Made by a program: the position numbers and the translations under genes. From Promethearchaeia archaeon (lineage in GTDB: Archaea; Asgardarchaeota; Lokiarchaeia; Sigyniarchaeales; SOKP01), in NCBI GenBank assembly GCA_029856045.1, contig JAHQWG010000021.1, positions 1 to 35,987 of the forward strand: DNA of 35,987 bases, written 5' to 3'. Below are positions 8,610-21,165 of the stretch, piece after piece. The first letter of the stretch is position 1; each line of letters starts with the position of its first letter. A model generated the notes under the pieces. It did no database searches, was not told where the DNA came from, and was given only the letters and a program-made list of their open reading frames with translations.

Positions 8610-10100
8610 TTATTCCTCCACTTCTTTCTCATCTTTCATTTCCTCCTCCTCTTTGACTTCTTCCTCTTCTTTTACTTTTTCTTCCTTCTCTATTTCTTCC
8701 TCTACTTTTTTTTCTTCTTTAACTTCTTCTTCCTTCGCTTCTTCAACTTCAATTTCTTCTACTTTCTCCTCTTCTTTAACTTCTTCTTCCTCCTTCTCTA
8801 CTTCCTCTGCTTTTTCTTCTTCTTTAACTTCTTCTTCCTTTTCTACTTCTTCCTCTTCTAATTCTTCCATTTCTTCCTCTTTCTTAACTTCTTCTTCCTC
8901 CTCTTCCTTAACTTTCTCTATTTCTTCAATAATTTCTATATCCTTTGGAATTAATAGGAATCCGTCTTTTGCACAGAATTTTGAAGCTAATTTATTGCTT
9001 GTAAAACAAATTGGACATATTCTATAGGATTCTTGATAAACTTTAATTGAGCTTTTAATATCTTCTAGTTTTTGGATTAATTTTTTACTTTTTTCTATTT
9101 CAATTAAGGAATCGAGAAATTTCTCATCCACTTTATTTGCTGAGGTTTGGATTAATTTCTGGATCAGGGTTATTAATCCTTCTTTTAATTTTTTCTCATC
9201 AAATTGTGATTTAATTTCATTTAATATATCATCTGTGTGATCCTGTATAAGTAATGCTATAACTTTTGTTAATCCAGGTATTAAATCAGGATAAAAAGAG
9301 ACTCTAATTATATTCGGGAGTAAGGCTTTGAATATATTAAAATCAGAAAAACCGAGTCTACCTAGCGCCTGAATAACATAACTTCTAAATTGAATATTTT
9401 TTACTGAAATTAACTTTTGAATTTTTTTGTATAATTCTTCGAATTTGGAAAGATCATATAAGCTTAAACACCCGATTGCCTTAATTGTCTCAATTCGTAA
9501 TGCAATAATTTCACTCTTAAACATTTTCTTTATTACTGGAAGGATAACATCAATAAATTTTGGTTCTGAATCAACTAAATTTACAAAAAAGCTATAAATT
9601 TCCGCTTGATTATCATATTCCGAATTTAAAATTGTTTTATTTCCAAGGATCTCTGCAATCCACGAATAATTTTTAATAAAAACCTCTTTATTATTATTAA
9701 AGTAAATAGATACCAGTTTTATTGCAAATTTTAGAATATCTTGGTCCTTCGATTTTTTTAATGTTTGAATAATTGAGTACCAAGGATTAAACTCATCAAC
9801 TTCTTTTTTAAGATTTATTTTTTCTTGAATAAAAGTATTAAATAAAGATAGAACTCGCTTTTTTGCATTTGGGTTCTTTTCAGATTTGTAATATTTTGCA
9901 ATATAAGGAAAAGTGACTACTGGATCCTTCTTTCCCTCATCAATAAGCTTATTCATAATTTGGGAACCATGACTTTTAAAAGTAATTTCACGGTTTAATA
10001 AATCTAAAAGCAAAGAGAGTCCTTTAATAATCTGCCCTTCCGCAAAATAATTATTTGCTTTATTAAATATCTTTTCTAAATCAGCCAATCTTGTTTCCAA
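8610..10100 (-). CDS. HEAT-like repeat protein with zinc-ribbon-like motif and long Glu-rich tail
   Basis: The 496-residue protein has three visible parts. Residues 1-350 are helical with HEAT/ARM-like repeats: paired amphipathic helices such as LRIETIKAIGCLSLYDLSKF and RSYVIQALGRLGF. At 362-380 a CPIC and a later FCAKDG form a zinc-ribbon-like knuckle in which the fourth ligand position is Asp, not Cys. From about 388 to the end there are 109 residues made almost only of Glu, Lys and Val. The tail is probably a single long charged helix or disordered. The start is TTG (METRLADLEK), the earliest consistent codon. It is probably a scaffold or binding protein; no enzyme motif is seen. Confidence 0.75.
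   Translation of the reverse strand: METRLADLEKIFNKANNYFAEGQIIKGLSLLLDLLNREITFKSHGSQIMNKLIDEGKKDPVVTFPYIAKYYKSEKNPNAKKRVLSLFNTFIQEKINLKKEVDEFNPWYSIIQTLKKSKDQDILKFAIKLVSIYFNNNKEVFIKNYSWIAEILGNKTILNSEYDNQAEIYSFFVNLVDSEPKFIDVILPVIKKMFKSEIIALRIETIKAIGCLSLYDLSKFEELYKKIQKLISVKNIQFRSYVIQALGRLGFSDFNIFKALLPNIIRVSFYPDLIPGLTKVIALLIQDHTDDILNEIKSQFDEKKLKEGLITLIQKLIQTSANKVDEKFLDSLIEIEKSKKLIQKLEDIKSSIKVYQESYRICPICFTSNKLASKFCAKDGFLLIPKDIEIIEEIEKVKEEEEEEVKKEEEMEELEEEEVEKEEEVKEEEKAEEVEKEEEEVKEEEKVEEIEVEEAKEEEVKEEKKVEEEIEKEEKVKEEEEVKEEEEMKDEKEVEE
8613..8939 (-). repeat. Low-complexity Glu/Lys/Val coding repeat
   Basis: This stretch encodes the acidic tail of the HEAT-like protein. On the plus strand it is almost pure pyrimidine. 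A block reading TTCTTTAACTTCTTCTTCC and close variants recurs four times, with the AAC at about 8721, 8778, 8826 and 8886, so spacings are 57, 48 and 60 nt, all multiples of three. That pattern suggests growth of the tail by in-frame unit duplication. The strand also gives a long Ser/Thr frame on the other side, which is an artefact of composition. Confidence 0.8.
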
Positions 10101-14308: not shown

Positions 14309-14818
14309 TCAAATATGATTAATTGAATCCTTTTGATATACAATTATAAATTCACAATACGATTGGTCGGTTTGCAGACTACACTTCTCTTCTTGAGCAA
14401 AACATTGAAGATCACTCATTTTCTCAACTAAAGCAGCTAATAATCCCGCTTCAAAACTGCAAAATGTTCCCTCTGCAGATATTTTTGAAGATAATAAATC
14501 TTTACAAGTAAGACAACTTCTTAATTTAACAGTTAAATGTTCATGTGAAATCTGCTCTTGTGAGAGTCCAGTTATATCAATTTCACCTAAATTGTATTTT
14601 TTAATTATTTTAACAAGTTCTTCAGGAATTTTAGTAAGATCATAAACTTTAGGAACATCAAATAATGAACCTAGTTCATGGCCTAAATAATAAAAAACAG
14701 CCTCCAATTGACTACCCAGAGCTAATAAGGCACCTATTTTCAAATTTCCAATACTTTTTCCTTCAAGAAGATTAGATTTCATCTTCTTTAATAAATCATT
14801 TAATAGAGAACGATTCAT
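14309..14818 (-). CDS. V4R-like cysteine-rich domain protein
   Basis: From ATG 14818 this is a 169-residue protein. Helices come first, then a Cys-rich C-terminal half: RSCLTCKDLL, then EGTFCSFEAGLLAALVEK, CFAQEEKCSL and a final QSYCEFIIVY strand. This order is like the V4R (4-vinyl reductase) domain, a small-molecule- or heme-binding fold found in sensors and transcription factors. The same end pattern is seen in the protein at 20539-21078. An upstream ATG at 14854 would add 12 mostly Lys residues, but AAAGGAAAA lies just before 14818, which favours the shorter form. It lies 57 nt after the thioredoxin-like gene. Ligand unknown. Confidence 0.7.
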   Translation of the reverse strand: MNRSLLNDLLKKMKSNLLEGKSIGNLKIGALLALGSQLEAVFYYLGHELGSLFDVPKVYDLTKIPEELVKIIKKYNLGEIDITGLSQEQISHEHLTVKLRSCLTCKDLLSSKISAEGTFCSFEAGLLAALVEKMSDLQCFAQEEKCSLQTDQSYCEFIIVYQKDSINHI

Positions 14819-14875
14819 GATAAATTTTCCTTTTTTTTTTTTAATTTTTAGCATTTTAATTTAATAAATTTTTAA

Positions 14876-15175
14876 TCAAATATCTACAGAAGATATAAAT
14901 CCTTGTAATATTGCGTCAATAATATCATCCATATCTACATTTCTAGTTAATTTTCTTCCTGCGATTACTAAAGATGGCACACTTGCAATTTTATATTTCT
15001 TTATTATTGGACTTTTTATGTCAATACTGATTTTCTGAATCTTTAATTTTTTTCCAAACATCGAGATATTAATTGTATGTATTAATTTCTCAACTTCTTT
15101 ACATGGTTCACAAAAATTTGAGGAGAAGAATAGAATTTCTGGTGTTTTATTTTCCTTCATAGTAGTAAAAGTCAT
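14876..15175 (-). CDS. Thioredoxin/glutaredoxin-like protein
   Basis: The 99-residue protein is a single thioredoxin fold. FFSSNFCEPCKEVEKLI carries the CEPC active site after beta-1, KIQKISIDIKS gives the second strand, and KIASVPSLVIAGRK gives the cis-proline loop facing the active site. It should be a dithiol-disulfide exchange protein, with a CEPC motif closer to archaeal mini-redoxins than to the CGPC of true thioredoxin. It lies between a small GTPase gene (43 nt upstream) and a V4R-like Cys protein (57 nt downstream), which makes that Cys protein a possible redox partner. The Met at residue 6 is an alternative start. Confidence 0.88.
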   Translation of the reverse strand: MTFTTMKENKTPEILFFSSNFCEPCKEVEKLIHTINISMFGKKLKIQKISIDIKSPIIKKYKIASVPSLVIAGRKLTRNVDMDDIIDAILQGFISSVDI

Positions 15176-15218
15176 TATATTTAATAGTAATTTTATTTAT
15201 TTCAATTGATGAATCTGC

Positions 15219-15749
15219 TTATTCTTTTACGGAATCGTATAATTCTTTTATGATGCATCTGAAAGCATCATACACGTTATTACCTGTTTTAGCAGAAGTT
15301 TTGTAATATTTAATAAAACGAATCTCATCTTTCAATGCATTGATTTTGGAATCATCTAATTCATTTTCATTTACTAGATCAACTTTATTGCCAAAAATCA
15401 CAATTGGAATATCTCCACAAAATTTTTTGATATCTTCATGCCAAATTTTTATACTATTAAAACTCTGCGAATCTATTAATGAAAAAACTAAAATGACTGC
15501 TCTTGCTCCTTTATAGAACGTCGGACGCATAAATGAAAACTCAGATTGACCAGCAATGTCCCAAAAAAAGAGTTTTACACGTATATCCTCAATTTCCTCA
15601 ATATATTTCGAGAACTGAGCCCCAATTGTTTTAATATAGTCTTTGACGAAACTCCCTTCAGTATATTGCTTAATAAGTGATGTTTTGCCAACCGCTCCGT
15701 TCCCTACGACAACGATTTTGAAAATATAAGATTTTTCCTCTTCACTCAA
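15219..15749 (-). CDS. Ras/Rab-like small GTPase
   Basis: The 176-residue protein has P-loop GNGAVGKT (16-23), KTIGAQF in switch I (Rab-like), FFWDIAGQSEF (WDIAGQ 63-68), GNKVDL and YYKTSAKTG. It is a complete Ras-superfamily switch. As in the other three GTPases of the window, the C-terminus (ELYDSVKE) has no prenylation cysteine. The start is TTG at 15749, which gives MSEEEK as in its relatives; there is no ATG upstream in frame. It leads the minus-strand set GTPase, thioredoxin-like, V4R-like, with gaps of 43 and 57 nt, so the three probably form one transcript. Confidence 0.95.
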   Translation of the reverse strand: MSEEEKSYIFKIVVVGNGAVGKTSLIKQYTEGSFVKDYIKTIGAQFSKYIEEIEDIRVKLFFWDIAGQSEFSFMRPTFYKGARAVILVFSLIDSQSFNSIKIWHEDIKKFCGDIPIVIFGNKVDLVNENELDDSKINALKDEIRFIKYYKTSAKTGNNVYDAFRCIIKELYDSVKE

Positions 15750-16384: not shown

Positions 16385-16469
16385 AAACTAGAAAAAAGTT
16401 AAAATATGTGAAAAGAGAATTATTTTATAGATACTGGGAATTTTTAAGAATTTTTAATTGGGAGATTAT

Positions 16470-16934
16470 ATGGTTTTAATTCGCGAATGTGGAATTTTAT
16501 TTAGGGGTTTTACTATAGTAAATTCACAGTATCATGATTTTGGGGCGAGTATAAAGGATAAAGACTTAAGATCGGGGCTTTTAACGGCTATAATTAACTT
16601 TTCAGATGCGGCATTCTCTCATAGTATTGAATATATAGAAGGTAAGAAGAAATCATTAATATTCACTCAAGATAAAATTTTATCTACGGATGTTGAGGAT
16701 GTTTCTGAAATAATTATTTCTTATATAATAATGGATAAAGTGAAAGATTTAGATAAAAAAAAGGAAAGAATTGTTCCTGAATTAAGAAAACTATTATTGT
16801 TATTTAAGGAGAAGTATAAAAATAAAAATCTTGCACATGTATCAGAATTTCAAGAATTCAAGAAAGAGATTGATAATTTATTTGGAGAAGAAGGAAAAAC
16901 CATTGAGCAACGATTAAAAGGTTCATTTTTCTAA
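16470..16934 (+). CDS. Probable longin-like domain protein
   Basis: From ATG 16470 this is a 154-residue protein. GILFRGFTIVNSQYHDF begins like a longin strand, and LRSGLLTAIINFSDAAF followed by IEYIEGKKKSLIF reads like the longin/profilin-like helix and beta strands. The C-terminal half is mainly charged helix. Longin and roadblock domains are abundant in Asgard archaea and in eukaryotes are regulators and tethers of small GTPases. A TTG at 16458 is in frame, but GGGAG at 16460-16464 sits well before ATG 16470, so that start is chosen. The gene ends 12 nt inside the convergent deoxyhypusine synthase gene. The fold call is inference from pattern. Confidence 0.6.
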   Translation: MVLIRECGILFRGFTIVNSQYHDFGASIKDKDLRSGLLTAIINFSDAAFSHSIEYIEGKKKSLIFTQDKILSTDVEDVSEIIISYIIMDKVKDLDKKKERIVPELRKLLLLFKEKYKNKNLAHVSEFQEFKKEIDNLFGEEGKTIEQRLKGSFF

Positions 16935-17855
16935 ATTTTTTAAATATGAAAAAACTAAGGGAAGAGCAATAGTTGCATCACAAATTAAAGTTGTGTATAA
17001 TGCTTCTTTATTAACCTTTCCCCATGAAACTGCCTCACTTAATGTTGCTCCACTTAGTCCTCCTGGTTCTGGTCGATCCATTGTTATTTGAATTGCGTAA
17101 GAGGCAGAATTAGGAGAAAATTGGAGGGATTGCATAATAAAATTTTTTGGAACACCTCCACCAACAATAAAAACACCGGCTTTTTTGGCATCCCATGCTA
17201 AATCTACCATTTTTAGCATATCTTTAAAATGATTTAAATTGAGTTTTTGATTGTGAAAACCCAATTGAAGTGCTAGACCACAATCAGTAAAAGCAGGACA
17301 GAAAATTGGAATATTTTTTTCAGCGCAAATTTTTAAAATCGAATTAGGATTGTTTGGTAGTTGTTCACCTAAAAATTTTAAAAACTCACTTACCGGCATC
17401 TCATTGTTAGGGACATTTAATTTTGAAATAAAATCTTCAATTCCTTCATAAGCATTATTAGGTAAAAATACATCATATATTCGATTGATTTTTTTATCAT
17501 ATAATTCTGCATCATCAATATTTTCTAATTTAAGATCACATTGCAGATGGTGGAATCCTAGAGTCTCAGCGACATCATGAGTTATAGTTGCACCGGTTGT
17601 CACAAGTACATCGAGAAAACCCTCTTCTATAAAATCGTGAATCACTTTTCCAAGACCAACCGGGATCATTGCACCTGCAAGTCCAAAAAATTTTATACAT
17701 TCTTTATCTTCTATCATCTTCTCGTAAATTTCACACGCTAAAGCTAGTCGTTTCGCATTAAATCCCGTATTAATTAAAGACCTAATGATTTTATTTATAT
17801 TATCGTTTTTAGAAATATCTATCTGCTCTACTGGTTTAAATTTATTATCCTTCAT
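16923..17855 (-). CDS. dys: Deoxyhypusine synthase
   Basis: The 310-residue protein has the family signatures: VTTGATITHD (NAD binding), YEGIEDF, GGGVPKNF with Lys237 as the catalytic lysine that forms the enamine intermediate, and GGLSGATLSEAVSWGKV near the end. It transfers the aminobutyl group of spermidine to a lysine of aIF5A. Archaeal enzymes are usually close to this length. Some DHS-like proteins make homospermidine instead, and this cannot be excluded from sequence. It follows the agmatinase gene by 18 nt, in an operon with argS and a V4R-like gene. The stop is TGA and overlaps the convergent longin-like gene by 12 nt. Confidence 0.93.
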   Translation of the reverse strand: MKDNKFKPVEQIDISKNDNINKIIRSLINTGFNAKRLALACEIYEKMIEDKECIKFFGLAGAMIPVGLGKVIHDFIEEGFLDVLVTTGATITHDVAETLGFHHLQCDLKLENIDDAELYDKKINRIYDVFLPNNAYEGIEDFISKLNVPNNEMPVSEFLKFLGEQLPNNPNSILKICAEKNIPIFCPAFTDCGLALQLGFHNQKLNLNHFKDMLKMVDLAWDAKKAGVFIVGGGVPKNFIMQSLQFSPNSASYAIQITMDRPEPGGLSGATLSEAVSWGKVNKEALYTTLICDATIALPLVFSYLKNLEK

Positions 17856-17873
17856 TTTCTCAATGCCTTAAAT

Positions 17874-18776
17874 TTATTTTTTGATAAAACTCATAAATTC
17901 CACTATTATTTTTGCTGCACAAATCTGAGTTATTTTATTTTGCAAATCCAAGTTAGGAGATACCTCAACTAAATCAAAACCTATAATATTAAATTCTTCT
18001 GCTAATTTTCTTAAAATTTGCCATAAATCTCTATAACTTAAACCACCAGGAACGACATATCCCGTTCCAGGAGCAATTGATGGATCTAACACATCGATAT
18101 CAATAGATACATATAATTTTAAGATGCCTTGAGATTTAAAGAACTTAAAAATTTTTTCAATTGTTTCTTGAATATCAATATCGTATATTTCACAAGAATT
18201 AATATGCTCTATTTTATTCTTTTTTATATTATCGAGCTCAATATTGTCGATATCACGAGCACCAACAATTAATAAATTTTTGTTATTCATATATTCTAAA
18301 TCAAATATTCTATGAGCGACGGTTGTATGAGAATTTTTTTTTCCTTCCCAAACATAGTAGAAATCTGCATGAGCATCAAATATAAGAACGCCAAATTTCT
18401 CCCTTTCCAAAACTAAATCCCCAATGGCTTTTAATACCGGATAAGTACAAAAATGATCGCCTCCAATCATCACCATTTTAGGTGACTTGTAAGGATTATA
18501 CAATTTTCTAACAAATTCTTCAATTTTTATCAGATTTTTTTCATTATTAGATGGGTCTATTTCGACATTTCCCAAATCAGAAGCATTTAATGTAGAAATA
18601 TCAAATCCCAATTCAGTAGATCTCGCAAGGTCGTAAGTTAATTCTCGTATTTTGAAGGGCGCGGCAGCAGAATTTACATTCTTTAAAGAACTAAGAGAAT
18701 CCCATGGAATACCAAAAATTAAAAACTCAGTGCTATGGTCAAAGTTATCTTTAAAGTCGTAAAATGTTTTTACCAA
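17874..18776 (-). CDS. speB: Agmatinase (ureohydrolase family)
   Basis: The 300-residue protein has the three metal-binding blocks of the arginase/agmatinase fold: GGDH (105-108), FDAHAD (Asp134, His136, Asp138) and SIDIDVLDPS (Asp226, Asp228), which bind the two manganese ions. The length and GFDLVEVSPN at the end fit agmatinase better than arginase or formimidoylglutamase. It should convert agmatine to putrescine and urea, supplying the polyamine pathway. The gene lies 19 nt after argS and 18 nt before the DHS gene, so putrescine and later spermidine production is placed with its consumer. No arginine decarboxylase is seen in the window; it must lie elsewhere. Confidence 0.9.
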   Translation of the reverse strand: MVKTFYDFKDNFDHSTEFLIFGIPWDSLSSLKNVNSAAAPFKIRELTYDLARSTELGFDISTLNASDLGNVEIDPSNNEKNLIKIEEFVRKLYNPYKSPKMVMIGGDHFCTYPVLKAIGDLVLEREKFGVLIFDAHADFYYVWEGKKNSHTTVAHRIFDLEYMNNKNLLIVGARDIDNIELDNIKKNKIEHINSCEIYDIDIQETIEKIFKFFKSQGILKLYVSIDIDVLDPSIAPGTGYVVPGGLSYRDLWQILRKLAEEFNIIGFDLVEVSPNLDLQNKITQICAAKIIVEFMSFIKK

Positions 18777-18795
18777 ATTAGACCCCTTACATAAT

Positions 18796-20514
18796 TTACA
18801 TTTGTAGTAAAACTTCTATTCCTAATAAGTTCAAACCAATTTTAATAACTATTTGGTTACATTTGATTAATAATAACCTTGCTTTCTTAGTCTTTTCATC
18901 GCTTGAAATAACAGGACAATTATCGTAAAAGATATTGAATTTTTGTGATAAATTTAATAGATATTGACACATTAAATGTGGTTTGTAAGATTCTGCAGCC
19001 TCTTTAAGAATTTCCGGAAATTGATATAGATTAAATATTAATTCTTTTTCGGTTTTGTGTTTTAAGAGTGAAAAATCAACATCTGTATCAATCTCAACTT
19101 CTGTTTTGTTAATAATGGATTGAATTCTTGCATAAACATATTGAATGTAGGGACCTGTATCACCTTCAAATGAGATACTCTTATCAGGGAAATAGGTAAA
19201 ATCTTTTTTTGAATCATATTTCAAAATGTAGAATCTTAAAGCAGCTTGTCCTATGATCCTCGATCGCTTTTCTATTTCCTCTTCATTCAAATCATTATAT
19301 CTTTTTAATATTTCATTTTTAGCTAAGTTATATACTTCCTCAATAATTTCATCTGCATCGACAGTTTGACCTTCTCTACTTTTCATTTTACCTTCTGGTA
19401 AATATACCATACCGTAATTAAGATGAATCATTTCCTCCGAAAAGCCTAAAAGTTCTAATATTTTAAATAATTGCTTAAAATAGGTGTTCTGTTCATTTCC
19501 AACAACATAAATTGACTTGTCGTAATTGAAATCTTCTTTTTTCTTTTTAGCTAAATATATGTCTTGTGTAATATAAAGTGATGTGCCATCACTGCGAAGT
19601 AAAACTTTATCAGGAAGATTATATTTCTCTAATCTAGCAATAACTGCCTTATTTTCAACCTGTTCAAAATTTTCACCATCTATTGCAGTTTTTATTATTT
19701 CTTTTCCTTTTTTATATATATCAGATTCGAAATATTCTTTGTCAAATTTAACATCTAATTTACTAAATGATTCATTAAAACCTTGTTTTGCCCAAGTATT
19801 CATCATTTTCCAAATAGCACGTATATTTGGGTCATTATTTTCCCATTTATGAAGTAAATCCTCAGCTTCTTGATTCATGTCGGGATCATTTTGCAATTTT
19901 TCATTAAATAAAACGTAGAACTTTCCAACAAAATGATCAGCCTTAATATTCTCATCTTCTGGTTTTTTATTATTCCCCCACTTTTGGTATGCAAGCATAC
20001 TTTTGCAAATATGAATACCTCTATCATTGAATAAATTAACTTCAAAAATTTCATTACCAATAAATCTTAGAAGGTTTGAAACTGATTGACCAATAAAAAT
20101 ATTTCTAAGAATTCCAAGATGTAGGGGTTTATTTGTATTTGGGGAAGGATACTCAACAACGATTTTAAGAGGGAGCTCAATCTCCTTGGATTCAATTCGT
20201 GCGAATTCTTCCCTTTTATTAAAAATATTAGTTAATACATCTTTTGCTAAAAATGTTTTATTTATATTAAAATTCAAATATGGTCCAACAGCTTTAATTT
20301 TTAATAAAAATTCAGGCTTAATCAAATTTTTTTCTAAATCTACAGCAATTTGTTGAGGAGATTTCTTTTTCACTTTTGATAAAATAAAGACAGGAAATGA
20401 ATAATCAAAATCAATATCTTTAGGAGGAAGTTCAATTAATTTTTCCACTTCTTGTGGAGTAATTTCCTTTATAAAATCAGATAATAAAACAGCAATCTGC
20501 TTCTTATAATTCAT
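18796..20514 (-). CDS. argS: Arginyl-tRNA synthetase
   Basis: The 572-residue protein has the ArgRS layout: an N-terminal additional domain, then the catalytic core with NTNKPLHLGILRN (HIGH block at 132-135, read HLGI where HLGH is common), FNDRGIHICKSM, and KMKSREGQ (376-380) as the KMSKS equivalent. The alpha-helical anticodon-binding domain with YVYARIQSI and a C-terminal Leu/Ile-rich end follows. It charges tRNA(Arg). It is the third-from-last gene of the minus-strand operon (V4R-like, argS, agmatinase, DHS), with gaps of 24, 19 and 18 nt. The loss of His in the fourth HIGH position is seen in some ArgRSs and does not imply inactivity. Confidence 0.96.
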   Translation of the reverse strand: MNYKKQIAVLLSDFIKEITPQEVEKLIELPPKDIDFDYSFPVFILSKVKKKSPQQIAVDLEKNLIKPEFLLKIKAVGPYLNFNINKTFLAKDVLTNIFNKREEFARIESKEIELPLKIVVEYPSPNTNKPLHLGILRNIFIGQSVSNLLRFIGNEIFEVNLFNDRGIHICKSMLAYQKWGNNKKPEDENIKADHFVGKFYVLFNEKLQNDPDMNQEAEDLLHKWENNDPNIRAIWKMMNTWAKQGFNESFSKLDVKFDKEYFESDIYKKGKEIIKTAIDGENFEQVENKAVIARLEKYNLPDKVLLRSDGTSLYITQDIYLAKKKKEDFNYDKSIYVVGNEQNTYFKQLFKILELLGFSEEMIHLNYGMVYLPEGKMKSREGQTVDADEIIEEVYNLAKNEILKRYNDLNEEEIEKRSRIIGQAALRFYILKYDSKKDFTYFPDKSISFEGDTGPYIQYVYARIQSIINKTEVEIDTDVDFSLLKHKTEKELIFNLYQFPEILKEAAESYKPHLMCQYLLNLSQKFNIFYDNCPVISSDEKTKKARLLLIKCNQIVIKIGLNLLGIEVLLQM

Positions 20515-20538
20515 TCTATAAATAATTTAGTATAAAAA

Positions 20539-21078
20539 TTAATTTATACTTTGGGAATTGGTTTCCTTTAATTTCGCTTCCATTTCCTTCTCCATTTCTT
20601 TCAAATCTTTCAAAAATACTAATTCGACGTAGCAGTAATCTTCTGTGGGTTTAACACCATTCAGTTTATATTCAACTTTTATGTCTGTTAATTTTTTTAA
20701 TGATTGTTCAAAATACGCTTTAGTAAATTGACAAAGAGTGCCACCATACTCAAGATCTTCTCTTTCTGCAATAAGTTTATGAAATGGGCATCGATTTTTT
20801 ATTTTAATTACTGTTCGGTCTTCTTCGTTATTTTGATTAAGCAGTTCAGCTTCAAATAGTTGAGAAACCATACTTTGAAATAAATTAAAAGCAGCAGAAA
20901 TATTTTCAAAATTACCACCATTTTGCTTGTGCTTTTCAAGAATTCTTTTGGCGATAATTTCAGCAGATTTTTGGCCAATTCTATAAATTAGAGCGTTTAA
21001 CGTAGGTTTTCCTAAAGTGGATTGTAGTTCATTTACCAAACTTCCTAAGAATGATCCTAAAGCCAAATTTTCATCCAT
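20539..21078 (-). CDS. V4R-like domain protein, leads argS operon
   Basis: The 179-residue protein is helical at first (SFLGSLVNELQSTLGKPTL, RIGQKSAEIIAKRI), then has KNRCPFHKLI and GGTLCQFTKAYFEQSL, and ends in DYCYVELVFLK. The Cys positions and closing beta strand are like those of the protein at 14309-14818, so both probably have a V4R-like fold that binds a small ligand or metal. It starts at 21078 (MDENLALG), is the first gene of the operon with argS, agmatinase and DHS, and is followed by 24 nt to argS. It could sense a metabolite of that pathway; this is a guess from position. No DNA-binding domain is seen. Confidence 0.7.
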   Translation of the reverse strand: MDENLALGSFLGSLVNELQSTLGKPTLNALIYRIGQKSAEIIAKRILEKHKQNGGNFENISAAFNLFQSMVSQLFEAELLNQNNEEDRTVIKIKNRCPFHKLIAEREDLEYGGTLCQFTKAYFEQSLKKLTDIKVEYKLNGVKPTEDYCYVELVFLKDLKEMEKEMEAKLKETNSQSIN

Positions 21079-21165
21079 GTTTTCTTACAACCCGTAATTA
21101 TTATAATTTAAAATTTATATAAAATTTTCGTAAAAATCGTCTTTCTTAAAAGATTATTTTGTTTA

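Follow-up and report, generated by a model that had tools for sequence, protein, structure and literature searches.

The DNA studied here is contig JAHQWG010000021.1 of assembly GCA_029856045.1, whose 35,987 nucleotides are together called the window. It belongs to a Lokiarchaeial genome of 3.34 Mb that is rated 100% complete with 3.5% contamination (G000 in our collection, the window being its contig C20). Four open reading frames (ORFs) follow one another head to tail on its minus strand, encoding a V4R-like protein, arginyl-tRNA synthetase (argS), agmatinase and a protein of the deoxyhypusine synthase (DHS) family, with spacers of 24, 19 and 18 nt. The nearest named relative at the locus is Candidatus Lokiarchaeota archaeon CSMAG_2237, whose DHS is 94% identical. 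What brings these genes together, and what might they be doing in a genome where the known routes to spermidine appear to be missing? The features on which the argument turns are:

20539 to 21078, minus strand: stand-alone protein of V4R/Bet3 (TRAPPC3) fold, 179 amino acids (AlphaFold and Foldseek; weak match to PF14196)
18796 to 20514, minus strand: argS, arginyl-tRNA synthetase, the genome's only copy, 572 amino acids (TIGR00456)
17874 to 18776, minus strand: agmatinase (ureohydrolase), the genome's only arginase-family protein, 300 amino acids (TIGR01230)
16923 to 17855, minus strand: DHS-family protein, the genome's only copy, 310 amino acids (PF01916)
21116 to 21130, minus strand: BRE/TATA-like element CGAAAATTTTATATA, 38-52 nt upstream of the first ATG (consensus match only)
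17870 to 18990, no strand: recombination tract, in which a divergent allele has replaced agmatinase together with the end of argS (its 3' part) (drop in identity; synonymous divergence, dS)

A reading of this DNA made without database searches (the sequence-only reading) had placed four genes here with gaps of 18-24 nt and put names to three of them, and both the layout and those names hold. Against a cut-off of 262 bits, the argS product scores 458 with TIGR00456. Agmatinase scores 186 bits with TIGR01230, where the cut-off is 174, and its metal-ligand motifs GGDH, DAHAD, SIDIDVLDP and VEVSP are intact. The DHS, with the SWGK motif and Lys329 present, reaches 313 bits with PF01916, over a cut-off of 27. 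The DHS falls under every NCBIfam cut-off for a DHS equivalog; the closest is PRK02301 (333.5 against 364), and TIGR00321 gives 279 against 304. At the HIGH motif, the sole argS of the window genome and of two others of its genus reads HLGI, not HIGH or HLGH, and a fourth genome of the genus reads HLGH.

The arrangement is conserved throughout the family. Our sample of the class comprised 60 genomes, 49 of them from the window's own family (f1). Counted from match coordinates, argS adjoins agmatinase in 46 of these 49, and the other three are 69-79% complete, with one or both genes missing from the assemblies. We also fetched 40 Lokiarchaeial stretches around DHS genes, among which all 28 family loci with the argS-type cluster (the window not counted) show the order argS-agmatinase-DHS, with intergenic spacing mostly of 0-37 nt or small overlaps; the stretches beyond these 28 are either from family f2 or carry a second copy of DHS. 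The trio is likewise present in 20/20 Lokiarchaeial loci of a second, independent collection. This gene order is far above chance expectation. An order unique to this contig would have refuted the sequence-only reading, and that check did not refute it. Beyond the family the arrangement is looser. Family f2 (closest named match, Candidatus Sigynarchaeota) has varied orders: V4R-argS-DHS in G071 and G101, V4R-agmatinase-DHS in G027, G092 and G134, and, in G151, all four genes probably together across a contig break. Among euryarchaeal and DPANN relatives, an agmatinase within ~6 kb of DHS is rare (L221 and L230), L230 having the order aIF5A-agmatinase-DHS. In family f13 (L258, L263, L270, L272, L274, L275, L279 and L287), aIF5A lies directly beside a His288-type DHS, unlike in Lokiarchaeia.

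The gaps within the cluster are too short for promoters with leaders, although promoters may lie within coding sequence. Upstream of the first gene, the BRE/TATA-like element has a TATA core that is invariant in four genomes of the genus, and beyond ~21310 the sequence can no longer be aligned; to judge from its match and conservation, this element is the probable single promoter of the operon. We infer co-transcription of the four genes, which probably form one conserved transcription unit, as had been proposed from the sequence when arginine, agmatine and DHS were linked in an operon. A scan for bacterial sigma-70 promoters, inapplicable to archaea, returned no more sites than shuffled sequences.

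It is a real possibility, although one we would not favour, that the promoter is shared for convenience only and that argS and the V4R-fold gene are functionally unrelated to agmatinase and DHS. In f2 genomes, argS or agmatinase has gone from the cluster and the remainder is kept. In genus g3 (L152 and L153; G011 and G068), a bacterial-type argS, 33-35% identical, has been substituted at the same place, an in-place displacement. In most of f1, moreover, no V4R-like gene stands at the cluster head, and the rest of the family has only remote V4R-like homologues elsewhere in the genome. Yet even the foreign argS retained its position, and the V4R-like gene comes first in 10/10 genomes with a copy of at least 40% identity (four of the window's genus and six of f2). 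Only the window's genus and this sister family have the V4R-like leader.

G000 has one DHS, one arginase-family protein (the agmatinase of the cluster) and one full-length argS, together with one pyruvoyl arginine decarboxylase on contig C44 (TIGR00286, 127 bits; cut-off 107) and one aIF5A on contig C27, above the TIGR00037 cut-off, with its modification loop KSKSGKHGHAK intact; by eye, the aIF5A gene adjoins Fen1/XPG-like and NAD-kinase-like ORFs. At E 0.001 there is no match to S-adenosylmethionine (AdoMet) decarboxylase (SpeD) in G000 or in the four further genomes of its genus in the sample, and none to spermidine synthase (SpeE) in G000, SpeE being missing from 59 of the 60 class genomes; the same searches were positive in 8 of 14 control genomes. 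Carboxynorspermidine decarboxylase (nspC) is above cut-off in no genome, and the weak match in G000 is nearest to LysA (diaminopimelate decarboxylase). The known de novo routes to spermidine thus appear to be missing from G000, in searches that did not include carboxyspermidine dehydrogenase (CASDH) or polyamine importers. In another locus (L104:1450-2886, minus strand), AdoMet decarboxylase is fused to BpsA_C (branched-chain polyamine synthase) in one protein of 478 amino acids, and for SpeE-less genomes a fusion of the same kind is suggested by AdoMet decarboxylase matches in frames of ~390-510 amino acids (other genomes of genera g2 and g4, and family f24).

The DHS also departs from the human enzyme at its active site. 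Aligned to human DHS, whose residue numbering we use, it keeps Lys329, Trp327 and Glu323 and has His288 replaced by Asn, Asn292 by Gln, and both Asp243 and Asp316 by Leu; of the acidic spermidine-binding residues Asp243, Asp316 and Glu323 it retains Glu323 alone. In human DHS, His288 is catalytic, and it is invariant in eukaryotes (PMC7226451, PMC9117371); it has also been lost in the DHS of a group of halophiles including Haloferax (PMC5178350). Across ~240 archaeal DHS sequences Asn288 always occurs with Gln292 and His288 never does, position 292 being Gly, Asn, Trp, Ala, Leu or Met when His288 is present, a strict covariation; a tree built from 76 sequences needs two changes to account for the two states. 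The loss of His288, as read from the alignment, is supporting evidence, not proof, of a donor other than spermidine: Asn288 alone does not exclude spermidine, because Asgard families bearing SpeD and SpeE carry it. As a predictor of missing spermidine genes across Asgard archaea, Asn288 gave no clean association, occurring with SpeD and SpeE in f8, f10 and f15, while f3-f6 have His288 without SpeE. Asp243 and Asp316 were likewise rejected as markers of agmatine use, the Sulfolobus DHS lacking both and yet using spermidine.

Because G000 has an aIF5A that can be modified and only one DHS, and shows no recognised route to spermidine, a donor made from arginine through agmatine is the most likely one for aIF5A. 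We therefore lean, without great confidence, towards reading the cluster as an operon for (deoxy)hypusination in a Lokiarchaeon without spermidine synthesis of its own, whose 4-aminobutyl donor would come from arginine via agmatine. In such a pathway, the pyruvoyl enzyme encoded outside the operon would decarboxylate arginine to agmatine, and the agmatinase and DHS of the operon, taking their carbon from agmatine, would build the 4-aminobutyl group onto the lysine of aIF5A. The two enzymes could act in either order. DHS might transfer the guanidinobutyl group of agmatine, with agmatinase then removing urea from the modified protein; or agmatinase might make putrescine first, with DHS then using the putrescine. 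The argS product, from the same transcript, would draw on the same arginine pool, and the V4R/Bet3-fold leader may be an accessory protein in a subset of lineages. The hypusine role that the sequence-only reading gave to DHS survives in part: this is the only DHS and the aIF5A loop is intact, but, with SpeD, SpeE and NspC missing and His288 lost, the natural donor is probably something other than spermidine.

Several observations weigh against an agmatine-fed hypusination operon. The aIF5A gene is unlinked to it; the Asn288/Gln292 form of DHS is also found in the SpeD- and SpeE-bearing families f8, f10 and f15; an agmatinase near DHS also occurs where the DHS is of the His288 type; and, in two f2 genomes (G071:C17 and G101:C107), the agmatinase lies outside the cluster and adjoins arginine decarboxylase, which slightly favours free putrescine over action on the protein.

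A precedent comes from Euryarchaeota, in which agmatinase clusters with aIF5A and DHS (PMC5178350). Haloferax volcanii has no spermidine, yet its aIF5A carries deoxyhypusine; its agmatinase gene is essential, and supplying putrescine does not change this (PMC5178350). The Haloferax DHS is inactive with spermidine, and Prunetti et al. 2016 prefer a model in which agmatine is first transferred to aIF5A and agmatinase then does the cleavage (PMC5178350). By analogy, the Haloferax genetics favour a route through an agmatine-aIF5A conjugate. The Haloferax cluster, aIF5A-agmatinase-(HVO_2298)-DHS, has in common with the window the clustering of agmatinase and DHS (18 nt apart in the window), an arginine decarboxylase, the lack of AdoMet decarboxylase and a DHS without His288. 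By contrast, aIF5A lies inside the euryarchaeal cluster and is unlinked in the window genome, whereas the cluster in the window includes argS and the V4R-fold gene; and the Haloferax case is experimental, whereas the Lokiarchaeial enzymes are known from genes alone. We also entertain, as a speculation that is probably wrong in at least some part, a fuller scheme in which agmatine would be used directly on aIF5A, the operon agmatinase would finish the reaction on the protein, the arginine level would set both tRNA charging and deoxyhypusination, and the V4R/TRAPPC3-fold protein would take part in some lineages.

Hypusination might instead be canonical: the cell would take up spermidine or make it by some pathway that goes unrecognised, and agmatinase would be a separate, putrescine-making enzyme. 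The coexistence of an Asn288 DHS with SpeD and SpeE in the three Asgard families named above would be in keeping with this, as would the Sulfolobus DHS, which uses spermidine without Asp243 and Asp316, although it has His288. We nevertheless find it rather unlikely: the spermidine genes are missing from G000, SpeD from all five genomes of the genus and SpeE from nearly the whole class, and the Haloferax DHS, which has no His288, gave no spermidine activity.

More doubtful still is the notion that the DHS-family protein works with agmatinase as a homospermidine or agmatine-coupling enzyme (of the SpeY or caldomycin-synthase type) and not on aIF5A: Leu316, a non-acidic residue 243 as in Thermus CdmS and the adjacent ureohydrolase would fit, but this is the sole DHS-family gene of a genome whose aIF5A keeps its modification loop, Leu316 and a residue other than Asp at 243 are common in archaeal DHS including the spermidine-using Sulfolobus enzyme, and the match to PRK02492 (agmatine coupling; caldomycin synthase) stops at 215 bits where 500 are required. 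A homospermidine-only role is unlikely because no other DHS would remain for aIF5A, which leaves the proposal in the sequence-only reading that homospermidine is made from putrescine a weak one. CdmS of Thermus thermophilus, a DHS homologue, couples agmatine, and a ureohydrolase then strips the guanidino groups (PMC10981699). The window pair has in common with this system the DHS fold, the ureohydrolase and Leu316, agmatine use being a CdmS feature; CdmS, however, acts on a second agmatine and not on aIF5A. A homospermidine or coupling role would better suit a separate clade, DHS2 (motif GGGVPRNWAQQ), which has pyruvoyl arginine decarboxylase as its neighbour in 11 or more family genomes of genera other than the window's and is under all NCBIfam cut-offs; we propose it, from sequence and neighbourhood, as the better candidate for homospermidine synthesis or caldomycin-type agmatine coupling. 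DHS2 is sometimes tandemly duplicated (L036, L041, L044 and other f1 loci).

The order of the trio is already on record. A 2019 survey described arginyl-tRNA synthase, agmatinase and deoxyhypusine synthase, the same three genes as in the window cluster, as a conserved set near a putative reductive dehalogenase in Lokiarchaeota, ~75% identical between the two genomes Baja_Loki3 and Loki_GC14, and suggested a role in organoamine metabolism (PMC6737245). The passage on the trio in that account draws no link to hypusine, gives no family survey and has no V4R-fold leader. To this the present analysis adds conservation across the family, the lack of any spermidine route, a DHS that has lost His288, a fold and a narrow range for the leader gene, and a testable question about the donor. 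For (deoxy)hypusine synthesis in archaea without spermidine there is one experimental case, Haloferax, and one proposed model; an agmatine-fed hypusination operon in the window would add an independent lineage, close to where eukaryotes arose, that shares the gene pair, the lost residue and the lack of spermidine genes, and would bear on the timing of spermidine-dependent hypusination, which is universal in eukaryotes.

The first gene of the cluster is less easily placed. The label V4R-like, taken from the sequence-only reading, stands at the level of fold and fails at that of sequence: the protein has no match to V4R (PF02830), and its only Pfam match is a weak one to PF14196 (ATC_hydrolase; 25.3 bits against a cut-off of 28.1), which an orthologue from the same genus reaches (28.4 bits). 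Its AlphaFold model (pLDDT 83, pTM 0.77) has as best Foldseek matches the phenol-sensor domains of MopR, DmpR and PoxR (E 5e-6) and Bet3/TRAPPC3 (E 5e-5), including a Thorarchaeal TRAPPC3. The predicted fold is common to these V4R domains and to TRAPPC3/Bet3, Asgard TRAPPC3 (PDB 7yh3) among them, but TM-scores are only ~0.5-0.6 at ~15% identity, and, in contrast to those proteins, the leader has no helix-turn-helix or AAA+ output domain; no DNA-binding or other output domain was found in it. A profile search of the V4R-like family against the PDB gave chance matches only, the fold comparison alone being informative. Cys97, Cys116 and Cys149 are invariant. On the strength of the model, a regulatory or ligand-binding ("sensor") role is possible, and a TRAPPC3-like role, in Asgard archaea, is an equal candidate.

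The cluster also bears the mark of a local exchange. From ~17870 to 18990, nucleotide identity to three genomes of the same genus falls to ~70%, with sharp boundaries and flanks at 82-99%, and dS is 1.2-1.3 in agmatinase against 0.1-0.5 in the neighbouring genes. This pattern indicates that agmatinase and the end of argS were swapped in place from a related, divergent lineage, catalytic motifs and gene order being retained. Faster evolution of the agmatinase protein was rejected, synonymous divergence being raised as well, and so was transfer from a distant source, the nearest relatives being the same-genus copies (63%, against at most 57% for others), from which it follows that the donor was a related, unsampled lineage.

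The surroundings of the cluster offer a few further observations. An ORF of 158 amino acids without a Pfam match (16458-16934, plus strand) is convergent with DHS, overlaps its 3' end by 12 nt and is kept in most family genomes. Downstream of DHS, 14309-15749 (minus strand) encodes a Rab-like GTPase, a thioredoxin-like protein and a second V4R-like protein, a set conserved at this place in much of the family. Farther along, a HEAT-like protein whose C-terminal tail is long and rich in Glu and Lys is encoded where ORFs run on both strands (8653-9027, plus; 8610-10100, minus), and the opposite frame is a spurious Ser-rich ORF.

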